A stretch of 64,000 bases of DNA, taken from contig NZ_BJZQ01000004.1 of assembly GCF_007992115.1 (NCBI RefSeq), forward strand, positions 62,001 to 126,000, written 5' to 3'. The translations under genes and the position numbers were made by a program. The notes under the pieces were generated by a model that ran no database searches, was not told the origin of the DNA, and worked only from the letters and a program-made list of their open reading frames with translations. The stretch is from Aeromicrobium flavum (GTDB lineage: Bacteria > Actinomycetota > Actinomycetes > Propionibacteriales > Nocardioidaceae). Below, piece by piece: positions 56,220-61,854 of this stretch (positions within the stretch are counted from its first letter, which is position 1; the number at the start of each line of letters is the position of its first letter).

Positions 56220-58193
56220 GTGGACGCACCCCTGGCCCTGTATCGGCGCTACCGACCCGAGACGTTCGCCGAGGTCATCGGTCAGGATCACGTGACCGCG
56301 CCGTTGCGTCACGCCCTGGCCAACAACCGGGTCAACCACGCGTACCTCTTCAGCGGCCCGCGCGGCTGCGGCAAGACCACCAGCGCCCGGATCCTGGCGC
56401 GCGCGCTCAACTGCGAGAAGGCGCCGATCTCCGACCCGTGCGGCGAGTGCCAGAGCTGTCGCGACCTGGCGCGCGGCGGGCCCGGCAGCATCGACGTCAT
56501 CGAGATCGACGCGGCCAGCCACGGCGGCGTCGACGACGCCCGCGACCTGCGCGAGCGCGCGTTCTTCGCGCCCGTCAGCAGCCGCTACAAGGTCTACATC
56601 ATCGACGAGGCCCACATGGTCTCCCCGCAGGGCTTCAACGCCCTGCTGAAGCTGGTCGAGGAACCGCCGCCGCACCTGAAGTTCATCTTCGCCACGACCG
56701 AGCCCGACAAGGTCATCGGCACGATCCGCTCGCGCACGCACCACTACCCCTTCCGGCTGGTGCCGCCCAAGCTGCTCAGCGACTACATGCTCCAGCTGTG
56801 CCGCAGCGAGGACGTCGGCCTCGAGGCCACGGCCCTGCCGCTGGTCGTGCGGGCCGGCGGTGGCTCCGTGCGTGACTCGCTCAGCGTGCTCGACCAGTTG
56901 CTCGCCGGCTCCGGTCCCGACGGCATCACGTACGACCTCGCGGTCCAGCTGCTGGGGTACACGCCCGACTCGCTGCTCGACGAAGCGGTCGAGGCGTTCG
57001 CCGCCAGCGACGCGGCCACCGTCTTCGGGGTCGTCGACAAGGTGATCGAGTCCGGCCAGGACCCCCGCCGCTTCGCCGAGGACCTGCTGCAGCGCTTCCG
57101 CGACCTGGTGATCCTCAAGGCCGTGCCCACCGCCGCCGAGACGGGCCTGCTCGAGACGCCGGCCGACCGCACGGCGGTCCTCATGCGGCAGGTCGCGGGC
57201 TTCGAGCCCACCGAGCTCACCCGCGCCGCCGACCTCGTCAGCACCGCCCTCACCGAGTTCCGGGGGGCCACGGCGCCGCGCCTGATGCTCGAGCTGATGT
57301 GCGCCCGGATCCTCGTGCCCGGTGCCGACAACTCCGTCGAGGGGTTCCACGCCCGGCTCGATCGGCTGGAGCGTCGCCTCTCCGGCGCCGCCCCGGCGCC
57401 CGAGACGGTGGCCGCGCCCCCTGCTGCGCCGGCACCGACGCCCGCGGCGGCTCCCGCGCCCCAGCCGACGCCGCAGCCTGCGCCGGCACCGTCCGCTCCC
57501 GCCGCCACCGAGGACGAGCCCAGTGGCTGGGGATCGACGCCCGAAGCGCCGGAGCCCGAGGCGGCCACGCCGACCCCCGAGCCCGTCGAGCCGGCACAGC
57601 CCGCCGCGGTCGCGCCGACTCCCGAGCCCCAGGCGGCCCCCGCACCCTCGCCCGAGCCCGCGGCCGCCCCCGGCGCCCTCACCACGGCCGACGTCCGGCG
57701 GATGTGGCCGCAGGTCCTCGAGCGCGTCCAGCAGCTGCGCCGCTTCACCTGGGTCATGCTCAGCCAGAACGCCCAGGTCGCCGCGCTCGACGGCTCCACG
57801 CTGACCCTCGCGCTGGTGAACACCGGGGCCCGCGACTCGTTCACCAAGAGCGGGTCCGACCAGATCGTCCAGCAGGCGCTGTCCGACGTCATGGCCGTCC
57901 AGTGGCGCATCGAGGCGATCGTCGATCCCTCCGCCACGCCCGCCGGCACCACCGCCACGTCGGCTCCGGCCGCCACTCCGGCCCCGGCACCCGCCGCGCC
58001 CACCGAGTCGCGCGTGCCCGAGTCGGTCCGCGAGGCGCTGCGCCAGGGCCCGGTCCCCATCACCCGGGTCGACCCCGACGCGGGCGTCGACCCCGACGAC
58101 CCCGTCGTCGACGACGGCTCGCAGGACGCGGAGGCGCTCCTGGCCGAGCACCTGGGGGCCGAGGTCATTGACGAGACTCCCCACGGGCGCTGA
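56220..58193 (+). CDS. dnaX: DNA polymerase III subunits gamma and tau
   Basis: A 657-residue clamp loader from GTG 56220 ('VDAPLALYRRYRPETFAEVIG'). Walker A 'FSGPRGCGKTTSARILA' is near residue 45, the zinc cysteines in 'CGECQSC', the Walker B 'VYIIDEAHMVS', and sensor 1 'IFATTEPDKV'. Residues ~395-490 are a Pro/Ala linker, and the tau-type C-terminus ('VRRMWPQVLERVQQLRRFTWVML') should bind polymerase alpha. It loads the sliding clamp at replication. The next gene starts inside its last 26 nt. Confidence 0.97.
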   Translation: MDAPLALYRRYRPETFAEVIGQDHVTAPLRHALANNRVNHAYLFSGPRGCGKTTSARILARALNCEKAPISDPCGECQSCRDLARGGPGSIDVIEIDAASHGGVDDARDLRERAFFAPVSSRYKVYIIDEAHMVSPQGFNALLKLVEEPPPHLKFIFATTEPDKVIGTIRSRTHHYPFRLVPPKLLSDYMLQLCRSEDVGLEATALPLVVRAGGGSVRDSLSVLDQLLAGSGPDGITYDLAVQLLGYTPDSLLDEAVEAFAASDAATVFGVVDKVIESGQDPRRFAEDLLQRFRDLVILKAVPTAAETGLLETPADRTAVLMRQVAGFEPTELTRAADLVSTALTEFRGATAPRLMLELMCARILVPGADNSVEGFHARLDRLERRLSGAAPAPETVAAPPAAPAPTPAAAPAPQPTPQPAPAPSAPAATEDEPSGWGSTPEAPEPEAATPTPEPVEPAQPAAVAPTPEPQAAPAPSPEPAAAPGALTTADVRRMWPQVLERVQQLRRFTWVMLSQNAQVAALDGSTLTLALVNTGARDSFTKSGSDQIVQQALSDVMAVQWRIEAIVDPSATPAGTTATSAPAATPAPAPAAPTESRVPESVREALRQGPVPITRVDPDAGVDPDDPVVDDGSQDAEALLAEHLGAEVIDETPHGR

Positions 58194-60840
58194 GCCGACG
58201 CGCGCGCCCGTCCGACGACGGCTCGCGCTCGACGCCTCACCCACGGAGGTCCTGCGCCGCCTGCGGGGCCGCGACCGCCTCGTCGCGCTGATCGGCGCGT
58301 GGCACCAGGGCGAGGCCCTGATCGCGTGTGAGCCCACCCGCCTGCTCGACGCGTGGGACGAGGTCGACCTGCCCCGGCACAGCGGTGACGGGTTCGGCGG
58401 CGGGTGGATCGGCGCGTGGGGGTACCGCCTCGGCCGGTACGTCGAGGACCTGCCCGACGGGCCACCTCGTCCCGTCCCCCAGCCCGACCACCGCGTCGGC
58501 TTCTACGACCTCGTGCTGCGCCGCGTGCGGGGCACGTGGTGGCTGGAGTCGACCGGCGAGCCCGACCCGTTGCGCGTGACCGAACTCCTCGACGCCGTCT
58601 CCCGCCCGGTCGCTCCCGAGCCGTTCTCCACCGGCACCTTCGCGATGACTCCGTCGCCGGCCCTGCACCGCGAGGCCGTCCGCCGGGCCCTCGACCACAT
58701 CGCCGCGGGCGACATCTTCCAGGTCAACCTGTGCGCTCGCCTCGAGACCGAGTTCACGGGCGACCCCCTCGACGCGTTCTGCGCGGGCGTCGACCAGCTG
58801 GCACCGGCCTACGCCGCCTTCGTCTCCTCGCCCGAGGGCGCGCTCGCCAGCTTCTCACCCGAGCTGTTCCTGCGGCGCACCGGCGACGAGGTCCTGGCCT
58901 CTCCCATCAAGGGCACGGCCCCGCTCACGGCCGACCCGCTCGAGTTGGAGGCGTCGGCGAAGAACCGCGCCGAGAACGTCATGATCGTCGACCTCATGCG
59001 CAACGACCTGGGTCGCGTCGCGGTGCCGGGGTCCGTCCGGGTGCCGGCCCTGAACCGGCTCGAGCGGCACAGCGTGTGGCACCTGGTCTCGGACGTCGTG
59101 GCCCACCTCCCCACGGGGGTGGGCGACGGCGACCTGCTGCGCGCCACCTTCCCGCCCGGCTCCGTCACGGGCGCACCCAAGGTGCGCGCGATGGAGATCA
59201 TCGCCGACCTCGAGGCCACCGGGCGTGAGGCCTACACCGGTGCGATCGGGCACGTCAGTGCGACGGCCGGCCTCGAGCTCAACGTCGTGATCCGCACCTT
59301 CGAGTTCGCCCCGCAGACCGACGGCACCTCCCGCGTGTGGCTCGGCGTGGGCGGCGGGATCGTGGCCGACTCCGACCCCGACGACGAGTACGCCGAGTGC
59401 CTCCACAAGGCGCGGCCGCTGGTCGAGGCGATCGGCGGACGCCTGGACCTGGAGTCCCCTCGCCGCTCCCCGCTGGCCCTCGCGGAGCCCTCGGAGGGCG
59501 ACGCGGTCCGGCCCGTCGACCTCGGCCGCGGGATCTTCGAGACGGTGCTCGTGCTCGACGACCGCGCCGTCGACCTCGACGCGCACCTCGCCCGCCTCGA
59601 CGCCGGCGTCCGGGCCGTCCACGGCACCACGGTGCGGGCCGGCCTCGAGGAGGCGGTGCGTCGTCAGGTCGCCGGACTGTCCGGGCGACACCGTCTGCGC
59701 ATCGACGCGGCGCCGCACGACGGCGACGTGCGGATCTCGATGACCGTCACCAAGGCCGGTCCCGCCGAGGCCTCGTGGTCACTCGTCCCTCGCCTCGTCC
59801 CGTCCGGCCTGGGTCCGCACAAGTGGGCCGACCGCGACCGGGTGCCCGTCGTACCCGGCCACGAGCCGCTCATCATCGACACCGACGGCTCGGTGCTGGA
59901 GACCGCCCGCGCCAACCTCTTCGCGGTGCTCGACGACGGTCTGCACACCCCCGCTCTCGACGGTCGCCTGCTGCCCGGCACGGTGCGGGCGCGCGTCATC
60001 GAGGTCGCCGGTGCGCTCGGCCTGCCCGTCCTGCAGCACCGGATGACCACGGCCCTGCTGGCCGAGGCCACCGAGGTCTTCGCCACCAACGCGCTGCGCG
60101 GCATCGTGCCGGTCACCTCCTGCGAGGGCGTCGGCCGCTGGTCGCCCGGCCCCGTCACCGCCCGCCTCACCGAGGCCTACCGCGGTGCCCTGCGGGGCGA
60201 CGGATCCTTCGACCTCCGGGTCACCCCCACGACCCCGAGGTCGAAGGATCCGTCCCCGTCGGCGCGGGCCCGGGTGCTGTTCATCGACAACTACGACTCG
60301 TTCGTGTTCAACCTCGTGCAGTACGCGCGCGAGCTGGGGGCCGAGGCCGAGGTGGTGCGCAACGACGAGACCTCCGTCGATGAGCTGCTGCGCGGCGACT
60401 TCACGCACGTCGTCGTCTCGCCGGGGCCCGGCACGCCCGCCGAGGCCGGGATCAGCGCTGAGGTCGTCCGCCGGTTCACCACCCCGCTGCTCGGCGTCTG
60501 CCTGGGCCATCAGGTGATCGGCGAGGTCTTCGGCGCCCGCGTCGTCCGCGCCGACCGGGTCGTGCACGGCAAGTCCTCGCTCGTGCACCACGACGGCCTC
60601 GGCGTCTTCGCGGGGCTGCCGTCACCGATGACGTGCGCCCGCTACCACTCCCTCGTGGTCGAGGACGTGCGCGAGCCGCTGGTCGTCACCGCGCGCACCG
60701 GATCCGGCGTCGTCATGGGCCTGCGCCACCGCGACCAGCCCATCGAGGGCGTGCAGATGCACCCGGAGTCGATCCTCACGTCCCACGGCCACGACCTGGT
60801 CGCCGCCTTCCTGCGCCGGAGCGGATCACGCATCGTCTGA
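58168..60840 (+). CDS. pabBCA: trifunctional aminodeoxychorismate synthase/lyase PabB-PabC-PabA
   Basis: An 890-residue fusion, probably starting at TTG 58168 inside dnaX. PabB (about 1-425) has 'FSPELFLRRTGDEVLASPIKGT' and 'VMIVDLMRNDLGRVAVPGSV'. PabC, the PLP lyase (about 440-675), starts 'DLGRGIFETVLVLDDRAVDL' and carries its PLP Lys in 'GLGPHKWADRDR'. PabA (about 697-890) has the nucleophile Cys778 in 'LLGVCLGHQVIG' and His-Glu in 'VQMHPESILTSHG'. All steps from chorismate and glutamine to 4-aminobenzoate (folate) are thus on one chain. PabA is at the C-terminus, unlike Streptomyces PabA-PabB. The linker 677-696 is encoded by a palindrome. Confidence 0.92.
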   Translation: MTRLPTGAEPTRAPVRRRLALDASPTEVLRRLRGRDRLVALIGAWHQGEALIACEPTRLLDAWDEVDLPRHSGDGFGGGWIGAWGYRLGRYVEDLPDGPPRPVPQPDHRVGFYDLVLRRVRGTWWLESTGEPDPLRVTELLDAVSRPVAPEPFSTGTFAMTPSPALHREAVRRALDHIAAGDIFQVNLCARLETEFTGDPLDAFCAGVDQLAPAYAAFVSSPEGALASFSPELFLRRTGDEVLASPIKGTAPLTADPLELEASAKNRAENVMIVDLMRNDLGRVAVPGSVRVPALNRLERHSVWHLVSDVVAHLPTGVGDGDLLRATFPPGSVTGAPKVRAMEIIADLEATGREAYTGAIGHVSATAGLELNVVIRTFEFAPQTDGTSRVWLGVGGGIVADSDPDDEYAECLHKARPLVEAIGGRLDLESPRRSPLALAEPSEGDAVRPVDLGRGIFETVLVLDDRAVDLDAHLARLDAGVRAVHGTTVRAGLEEAVRRQVAGLSGRHRLRIDAAPHDGDVRISMTVTKAGPAEASWSLVPRLVPSGLGPHKWADRDRVPVVPGHEPLIIDTDGSVLETARANLFAVLDDGLHTPALDGRLLPGTVRARVIEVAGALGLPVLQHRMTTALLAEATEVFATNALRGIVPVTSCEGVGRWSPGPVTARLTEAYRGALRGDGSFDLRVTPTTPRSKDPSPSARARVLFIDNYDSFVFNLVQYARELGAEAEVVRNDETSVDELLRGDFTHVVVSPGPGTPAEAGISAEVVRRFTTPLLGVCLGHQVIGEVFGARVVRADRVVHGKSSLVHHDGLGVFAGLPSPMTCARYHSLVVEDVREPLVVTARTGSGVVMGLRHRDQPIEGVQMHPESILTSHGHDLVAAFLRRSGSRIV
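60199..60254. repeat. palindrome inside the PabC-PabA linker
   Basis: A perfect 18-bp inverted repeat (60,199-60,216 with 60,237-60,254) around a 20-nt loop, in frame within the fusion gene. It encodes residues ~677-696. Size and position suggest a former intergenic element captured in the fusion. Confidence 0.85.
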
Positions 60841-60868
60841 GACGATGGAGGCACGGCCCCAAGCAGGC

Positions 60869-60912
60869 CGCCGGACGAGTGGAGTCGTACCCGGATCGCG
60901 ACAAGACGGCCA
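60869..60912 (+). ncRNA. guanidine-III riboswitch (ykkC-III)
   Basis: The sequence CCGGACGAG (60,871), GTCGTACCCGG (60,884) and ACAAGACGGC (60,901) in order matches the short guanidine-III consensus, with CCGGACGAG...CCGG and ACAAGACGGC forming its pseudoknot. It ends 14 nt before the ATG of a SugE-like exporter, near the GAGGAG ribosome site, so guanidinium probably frees translation. Confidence 0.85.
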
Positions 60913-60926
60913 CCGAGGAGTGCGTC

Positions 60927-61244
60927 ATGTCGTGGATCGTCCTGGTCGTCTCGGGCCTGTTCGAAGCCGTCTGGGCCACCGCCCTCGGCCGCAGTGAGGG
61001 CCTCACCAAGCTCGGGCCGACGCTCGTGTTCGGTGGCGCGCTGATCGTCAGCATGGGCGGCCTGGCCTGGGCCATGCGCGGACTGCCGGTGGGCACGTCC
61101 TACGCCGTGTGGGTCGCGATCGGCGCGGCCGGCACCGTCACGTACGCGATGGTCACCGGCACCGAACCGGCCTCGGTGGCGAAGATCGCGCTGTTGCTGG
61201 GCCTGATCGGGTGCGTCGTCGGGCTGAAGATGCTGGACCACTGA
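60927..61244 (+). CDS. guanidinium exporter, SMR family (Gdx/SugE-like)
   Basis: A 105-residue, four-helix protein; GAGGAG lies 6 nt before the ATG. The substrate-binding Glu is in helix 1 ('SGLFEAVWATALGRSEG'), 'PVGTSYAVWVAIGAAGTV' forms helix 3. The sequence fits SugE/Gdx rather than EmrE-type exporters, and the guanidine-III riboswitch upstream supports guanidinium as substrate. It works as an antiparallel dimer exchanging guanidinium for protons. Confidence 0.93.
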   Translation: MSWIVLVVSGLFEAVWATALGRSEGLTKLGPTLVFGGALIVSMGGLAWAMRGLPVGTSYAVWVAIGAAGTVTYAMVTGTEPASVAKIALLLGLIGCVVGLKMLDH

Positions 61245-61257
61245 CTAGGCTGGCGGC

Positions 61258-61854
61258 GTGTACGAAAGTGTGATCCAGGACCTCATCGACGAGCTCGGAC
61301 GTCTGCCGGGCATCGGCCCGAAGAGCGCCCAGCGGATCGCCTTCCACCTCCTCGACGCCGACCCCGACGACGTGAAGCGCTTCGCGCAGACGCTGGTCGA
61401 CGCCAAGACCAAGGTGCTGTTCTGCTCGGTGTGCGGCAACGTCACCGTCGACACGACGTGCCGCATCTGCGCCGACCCGCGACGGGACGAGTCCGTCCTG
61501 TGCGTGGTCGAGGAGAGCAAGGACGTCATCGCGATCGAGCGCACGCGCGAGTTCCGCGGCCGGTACCACGTGCTCGGCGGCGCGATCAGTCCGATCGCCG
61601 GCATCGGACCCGACCAGCTGCGCATCAAGGAGCTGCTCCTGCGCCTGCAGGACGGCGCCGTCACCGAGGTCATCATCGCCACCGATCCGAACCTCGAGGG
61701 CGAGGCCACCGCGACGTACCTGATGCGGATGCTGGTGCCGATCGGCCTGCGGGTCACGAAGCTCGCCAGCGGCCTGCCCGTCGGCGGCGACCTGGAGTAC
61801 GCCGACGAGGTCACCCTCGGTCGCGCGTTCGAGGGCCGCACCGCCGTCGGCTGA
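61258..61854 (+). CDS. recR: recombination protein RecR
   Basis: A 198-residue protein with a GTG start ('[20 protein letters not shown]'). The helix-hairpin-helix '[17 protein letters not shown]', the zinc cysteines in '[19 protein letters not shown]', and the Toprim domain '[16 protein letters not shown]' with '[15 protein letters not shown]' are all present. It acts with RecFO to load RecA on gapped DNA. It normally follows dnaX and ybaB; here the pab fusion and an exporter lie between and no ybaB is seen. Confidence 0.97.

Follow-up and report, generated by a model that had tools for sequence, protein, structure and literature searches.

A guanidine-III riboswitch preceding a predicted guanidinium exporter gene in Aeromicrobium flavum

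The aptamer and the gene behind it

Does the region in front of a small membrane protein gene of Aeromicrobium flavum contain a riboswitch for guanidine, a toxic compound, and by which step of gene expression would it act? The window, i.e. the whole stretch of DNA that was analysed, has a length of 64,000 nt. An earlier note, made from the sequence alone, had proposed that a riboswitch of the ykkC-III class (another name for guanidine-III) controls a SugE/Gdx exporter at this position. We observed an aptamer with its ligand bases, a gene of identifiable type directly adjacent to it, and conservation of both in relatives. It is very likely that the riboswitch is a translational ON switch for a single Gdx-type guanidinium exporter. 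The elements of the locus are the following:

60850-60914, + strand: guanidine-III (ykkC-III) aptamer, including its 5′ hairpin
60854-60870, + strand: 5′ hairpin of the aptamer model, CGGCC/GGCCG (Rfam alignment and predicted fold)
60871-60911, + strand: pseudoknot core, with P1 at 60871-60874/60891-60894 and P2 at 60884-60888/60906-60910
60915-60920, + strand: Shine-Dalgarno motif GAGGAG (read from the sequence)
60927-61244, + strand: gene of a gdx/sugE-type SMR exporter of 105 aa (PF00893, Gdx residues, best PDB match)

A cmscan search of the 64-kb window gave a match to RF01763 at 60850-60914 that covers the full model (positions 1-67) with 49.1 bits, compared with a gathering score of 36 (E 3.6e-7). 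When 60700-61300 was scanned alone, this was the sole match up to E 1, and the guanidine-I, -II, and -IV riboswitches had no match in that interval at the same limit. It is also the single guanidine-III match in the organism's own genome (3.09 Mb, 31 contigs). The element is a guanidine-III riboswitch aptamer and an ordinary member of the published class; the class assignment of the earlier note, which had named a low covariance score as the result that would speak against it, is thus upheld. The short consensus pieces indeed follow each other in the order claimed, i.e. CCGGACGAG at 60871-60879, CGUACCCGG at 60886-60894, and GCGACAAGACG at 60898-60908, the last with one additional C at 60899 that is likewise present in the Rfam consensus. 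The element also ends beside the ribosome site, as had been stated, with the Shine-Dalgarno motif starting at the base after the Rfam match. The right element had been recognised, but its left edge had been set at 60869, 19 bases too late, because the 5′ hairpin is part of the Rfam model.

The gene starts with an ATG at 60927 and ends with a stop codon at 61242-61244. Its product belongs to the SMR family (PF00893, 61.0 bits, cut-off 23.7) and is the only SMR match in its own genome.

For comparison, we estimated how widely the aptamer occurs. Guanidine-III was found in 32 of 49 genomes of the genus, in 171 of 294 genomes sampled from the family, and in 51 of 396 genomes sampled from the phylum (42 of the 51 over the cut-off). 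The locus comparisons below are based on 149 loci from genus and family (L001-L049 and L085-L184), representing most but not all matches, as weaker ones were left out. Within 750 bases downstream of the aptamer, 142 of the 149 have a Gdx-like gene, which bears out the earlier claim that gene and riboswitch support each other; five have a gene for a CBU_0592-like membrane protein, and two have neither.

No exporter was recognised behind the aptamer of L163, which precedes a short frame beginning MVKPAGHDIPPHG, or behind that of L108, where a broken-looking start is followed by a frame labelled by eye as aminotransferase-like. At L175 (genome G066) and L334 (G295), one guanidine-III aptamer is followed by two SMR genes in tandem.

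Proposed control of the start codon

In the published model, folding of the aptamer around the ligand exposes the ribosome site (PMC5696562, PMC12186494); the structure paper itself calls the guanidine-III mechanism less well established (PMC5696562). Two further elements are predicted for the window:

60838-60846, + strand: likely extended -10 promoter, TGAGACGAT (predicted from a motif across aligned loci)
60897-60934, + strand: predicted ligand-free hairpin, with 60897-60903/60928-60934, 60905-60908/60923-60926, and 60911-60913/60920-60922 paired (MFE fold)

The motif at 60838-60846 is the likely promoter and would reuse the end of the upstream pab gene, the stop codon of which is the TGA within TGAGACGAT. 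It has no recognisable -35 element. Of the 149 loci, 83 carry the pattern TGnnAnnnT between 46 and 21 nt ahead of A5 of the aptamer and 66 lack it; some of the latter have TAnnnT lacking the TG (by eye). In three windows of the same length further upstream, the pattern occurs in 1, 3, and 1 of the 149 loci; these control windows are probably mostly coding, so that part of the contrast may reflect composition. A generic two-hexamer promoter scan of 60700-61400 yielded nothing, the promoter being visible only through the comparison of loci, and no terminator-like sites were found in this interval.

We infer the following ligand response and direction of switching, together with the promoter and the masking hairpin. 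Transcription would begin about 6-8 bases past the -10 element at 60841-60846, i.e. at about 60852-60854, right at the foot of the 5′ hairpin. As long as guanidine is lacking, the conserved 3′ aptamer strand (GCGACAAGACG) would pair with the start region CGUC-AUG-UCG and mask the start codon. Upon binding of guanidinium by G7 and G17, the pseudoknot would take this strand away and the start region would open, and the Gdx protein then made would pump guanidinium out of the cell.

In the MFE fold of the leader, the start codon lies partly within a stem, and the loop holds most of the Shine-Dalgarno motif. The leader (60841-60935) is not more stable than shuffled sequences (z -0.45), so that the stability of the fold does not by itself count as evidence. 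Part of the complementary sequence at the start is conserved: GTC directly precedes the start in 91 of the 146 loci included in this count, and CGTC in 55, compared with GTC in one of 20 SMR genes without a riboswitch. The starts of these 20 genes were assigned by eye, and 11 of the genes seem to be closely related to one another. Five of the 20 controls have ATC before the start and TC alone is not rare, so the contrast lies in the G.

To quantify the pairing between the 3′ strand of the aptamer and the start region, 145 loci were used, i.e. the 149 without the two lacking a recognised downstream gene, L159 (no anchor), and L175 (start misset). The window has 8.82 expected pairs, compared with 1.51 in shuffles, and the family average is 3.94, compared with 1.60. 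The pairing exceeds the shuffled mean in 107 of the 145 loci and reaches an empirical p of 0.05 in just 63, with 40 shuffles for each. Among nine loci listed individually, L038 shows almost no such pairing.

We then barred the core and the 5′ hairpin from pairing. In the window, the unpaired probability rose from 0.43 to 0.77 for the start codon and fell from 0.70 to 0.34 for the Shine-Dalgarno motif. Over the 145 loci, the start opened in 83 and closed in 41, and the Shine-Dalgarno motif opened in 32 and closed in 92. With the core alone barred, the corresponding values were 73 and 47 for the start, and 42 and 82 for the Shine-Dalgarno motif. On these counts the model favours masking of the start codon over exposure of the Shine-Dalgarno motif, though not at every locus. 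Start-codon masking is therefore the likelier form of control here as far as the modelling goes, the support of which is mixed.

A different view accepts the aptamer and the Gdx gene as genuine and places control mainly at the level of mRNA stability, with the folded aptamer keeping RNase E away from the transcript. A review citing Richards and Belasco 2021 states that guanidine-III, once it has bound guanidine, also guards the mRNA against scanning by RNase E (PMC12186494), and a start at about 60852 would put the aptamer at the extreme 5′ end of the transcript. The mixed outcome of the accessibility model across loci also speaks for this view. Against it, most loci retain a GTC in front of the start that is complementary to the aptamer, which control by stability alone does not need. 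We regard control mainly by stability as rather unlikely, and retain the masking of the start codon as the preferred reading.

Ligand bases and type of exporter

Bases were numbered according to the 41-base scheme of the Thermobifida fusca structure (PMC5696562), with C1 at 60871. The ligand bases are present, with C6 at 60876, G7 at 60877, and G17 at 60887, and the core is kept between 60875 and 60908. Position 6 is C in 148 of the 149 loci, whereas G7, G17, U18, A19, and C20 are invariant. The 24 nt at the 5′ hairpin have a folding energy of -4 kcal/mol or lower in 148 of the 149.

The T. fusca H-type pseudoknot is described as having four pairs in P1 and seven in P2 (PMC5696562). In the window, P1 has all four pairs and P2 five of seven: the inner five are kept, one of them as U-G (15-38), and positions 13-40 and 12-41 do not form standard pairs. 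Across the family, the pairs of P1 are kept in 145-149 of 149 loci and the five inner ones of P2 in 139-145 of 145; the two outermost are kept in just 45 and 60 of 145 when counted in a fixed register that does not allow for insertions or deletions. Two-sided changes, counted as loci and not as independent events, were found in both stems. In P1, pair 1-24 changes from C-G to U-A in five loci, and 3-22 from G-C to C-G in three and to U-A in two; in P2, pair 14-39 changes from G-C to C-G in six and to A-U in two.

Could the aptamer have decayed or shifted to another ligand, so that guanidine is no longer sensed? Its 49.1 bits lie in the lower portion of the scores of the family, which reach 70.4, and the U-G pair and the two non-standard outer positions of P2 point in the same direction. 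In contrast, the ligand-contacting and core bases are kept, and the gene encodes an intact Gdx. Moreover, the form TGGAGTCG is common to L020 and to all seven loci at the pab-recR site described below, the window included, and thus represents a maintained lineage variant. A loss of guanidine sensing is very improbable, and we continue with an aptamer that would respond to guanidinium.

The 105-residue protein has all of the Gdx residues E13, W16, S42, Y59, and W62. W16 is reported to mark Gdx proteins, while Qac types carry Gly or Ala at this position (PMC7695847). Up to E 0.001, two distinct PDB sequences match the protein, 6wk5 and 8vxu; both carry the deposited name 'Multidrug resistance protein, SMR family'. 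The better one is 6wk5 (E 1.8e-18, residues 1-102), which we take to be Gdx-Clo; both matches would be of this type. The NCBI SugE equivalog NF008512 scores 91.3 bits, under its curated cut-off of 126. The protein is therefore filed as a Gdx-type SMR protein and not as that equivalog, and what supports the Gdx label is the set of residues, the riboswitch, and the nearest protein of solved structure. With this caution about the SugE score, the earlier description as an SMR protein of the guanidinium-specific type stands, and we classify the product as a Gdx-type SMR protein and predicted guanidinium exporter. That it is instead a Qac-type multidrug pump, as might be argued from the SugE score and from weak matches to Smr, Qac, Bcr, and Ebr models, is very improbable, given the presence of W16, the kind of structures matched, and scores of at most 39.9 bits for the 15 other SMR models, which have cut-offs of 160 and more.

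A guanidine carboxylase was also sought in the same genome with TIGR02712. None of the 15 matches exceeded the cut-off, and they appear to be ordinary biotin carboxylase, biotin carrier, and carboxyltransferase parts.

Probable gain and loss of the unit and its relation to known systems

The gene behind the exporter is recR, and one more element marks the 3′ edge of the unit:

61246-61251, + strand: likely recR -10 element, TAGGCT (read from the sequence), 6 nt before the recR GTG (61258)

This element begins one base past the gdx stop codon. TAGACT or TAGGCT also precedes recR in several relatives, among them ones without the gdx unit. The recR gene probably has its own promoter. Given the distance of just 6 bases to the GTG, its message would be leaderless.

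The upstream neighbour, pab, is an 890-residue frame at 58168-60840 that joins three folate-precursor enzymes, i.e. a chorismate-binding PabB part, a class IV aminotransferase (PabC-like) part, and a glutamine amidotransferase PabA part. The linker between the PabC and PabA parts contains a perfect 18-base inverted repeat, GACGGATCCTTCGACCTC / GAGGTCGAAGGATCCGTC, at 60199-60254. Each arm occurs once in the window, and the relatives L022 and L024 have a partial version only.

A recR match was obtained in 46 genomes of the genus, and 30 loci were examined, including that of the window. In seven of the 30, gdx lies directly before recR, and in six of these seven pab is the next gene upstream; L017/L053 has a further frame, alcohol-dehydrogenase-like by eye, between pab and gdx. 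The proteins of the seven loci form one side of a branch in a tree of 43 (support 92/98; 91% of 200 bootstrap trees), in which L159 has a misset start and a long branch, and L015, L043, and L049 have a few extra residues at the start. This grouping fits a single gain, and the unit was probably gained once between pab and recR. At L059, L060, L061, and L076, pab and recR are 6-9 bases apart with nothing between them, and the respective genomes (G022, G019, G009, and G046) have no guanidine-III match anywhere. At L063, L064, and L070, the gaps between pab and recR are 75-169 bases, without gdx.

A loss was found as well, elsewhere in the genus. Genomes G014 (L285) and G001 (L286) share gdx and the gene upstream of it, with flanks that align at 86% and 87%, and the 105 bases that hold the aptamer in G001 face 7 bases in G014. 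No aptamer was detected at the G014 locus up to E 0.1 (cmscan), and gdx overlaps the stop codon of the upstream gene (TGATG). This arrangement suggests a natural riboswitch loss in G014, with control probably changed to translational coupling.

Taken further, these comparisons lead to a tentative, two-part generalisation, which we consider somewhat more likely to fail than to hold. First, a platform would be shared across the family in which GTC-AUG-UC, the sequence at the start, reproduces the complement of the ligand-core strand of the aptamer, so that the start codon and not the Shine-Dalgarno motif is switched. Second, promoter, aptamer, ramp, and gdx would together be a cassette that is complete in itself at about 400 bases, borrows the stop codon and promoter of its neighbours, and can be acquired between housekeeping genes or precisely lost.

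Guanidine-III aptamers also occur in front of another kind of gene. Directly 5′ of a gene for a small membrane protein of the CBU_0592 family (NF047864), an aptamer was found in 14 of 38 loci scanned (L287, L288, L289, L292, L293, L294, L296, L298, L300, L301, L302, L303, L306, and L310); the CBU_0592-like frame of L310 has an internal stop. Within the family, 8 of 294 genomes have a relative of CBU_0592, and six of the eight loci have an aptamer over the gathering score, the weakest with 36.8 bits. Class-wide, a relative is present in 37 of 394 genomes, and 8 of 30 loci scanned have an aptamer over the gathering score. These eight aptamers span five further families; three of them score 38.0-38.7 bits and one 36.9. 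Five aligned CBU_0592-like proteins of the family share E59-x-V-W62-A, which resembles E13-A-V-W16-A of Gdx. A profile comparison with SMR proteins gave a probability of 1.4%, i.e. no homology was shown, and a Pfam search of the CBU_0592-like proteins returned no match. The recurrent position behind the aptamer suggests that the CBU_0592-family protein may be a second guanidine-related membrane protein. A literature search with the term CBU_0592 returned no paper; the link to the aptamer may already be recorded under another name.

With this locus, a documented class gains a clean guanidine-III/Gdx pair, and no second one was found in the genome. The class, its pairing with such genes, and the ON direction are already published (PMC7266159, PMC2864571, PMC12186494): guanidine-III is described upstream of emrE (SMR) and speB genes (PMC2864571) and as occurring mainly in Actinobacteria (PMC12186494). 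What goes beyond this is a concrete model of start-codon masking, together with cases of gain and loss of the unit that arose naturally among close relatives; the platform model and the CBU_0592 lead are the main points of interest.

Compared with RF01763 and the T. fusca structure 5NWQ (PMC5696562), the conserved core, the ligand bases, and the P1 pseudoknot are alike. The differences lie in P2, with its U-G pair and non-standard outer positions, and in the distance to the ribosome site, which follows immediately here; in T. fusca, 16 nt are reported to separate the riboswitch 3′ end from a ribosome site (PMC5696562). The exporter has the five diagnostic residues and the length in common with Gdx-Clo (PMC7695847). 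The guanidine-I, -II, and -IV riboswitches have the same ligand and similar target genes (PMC12186494), but their folds differ. Identity of the exporter with 6wk5, presumably Gdx-Clo, is 37%.
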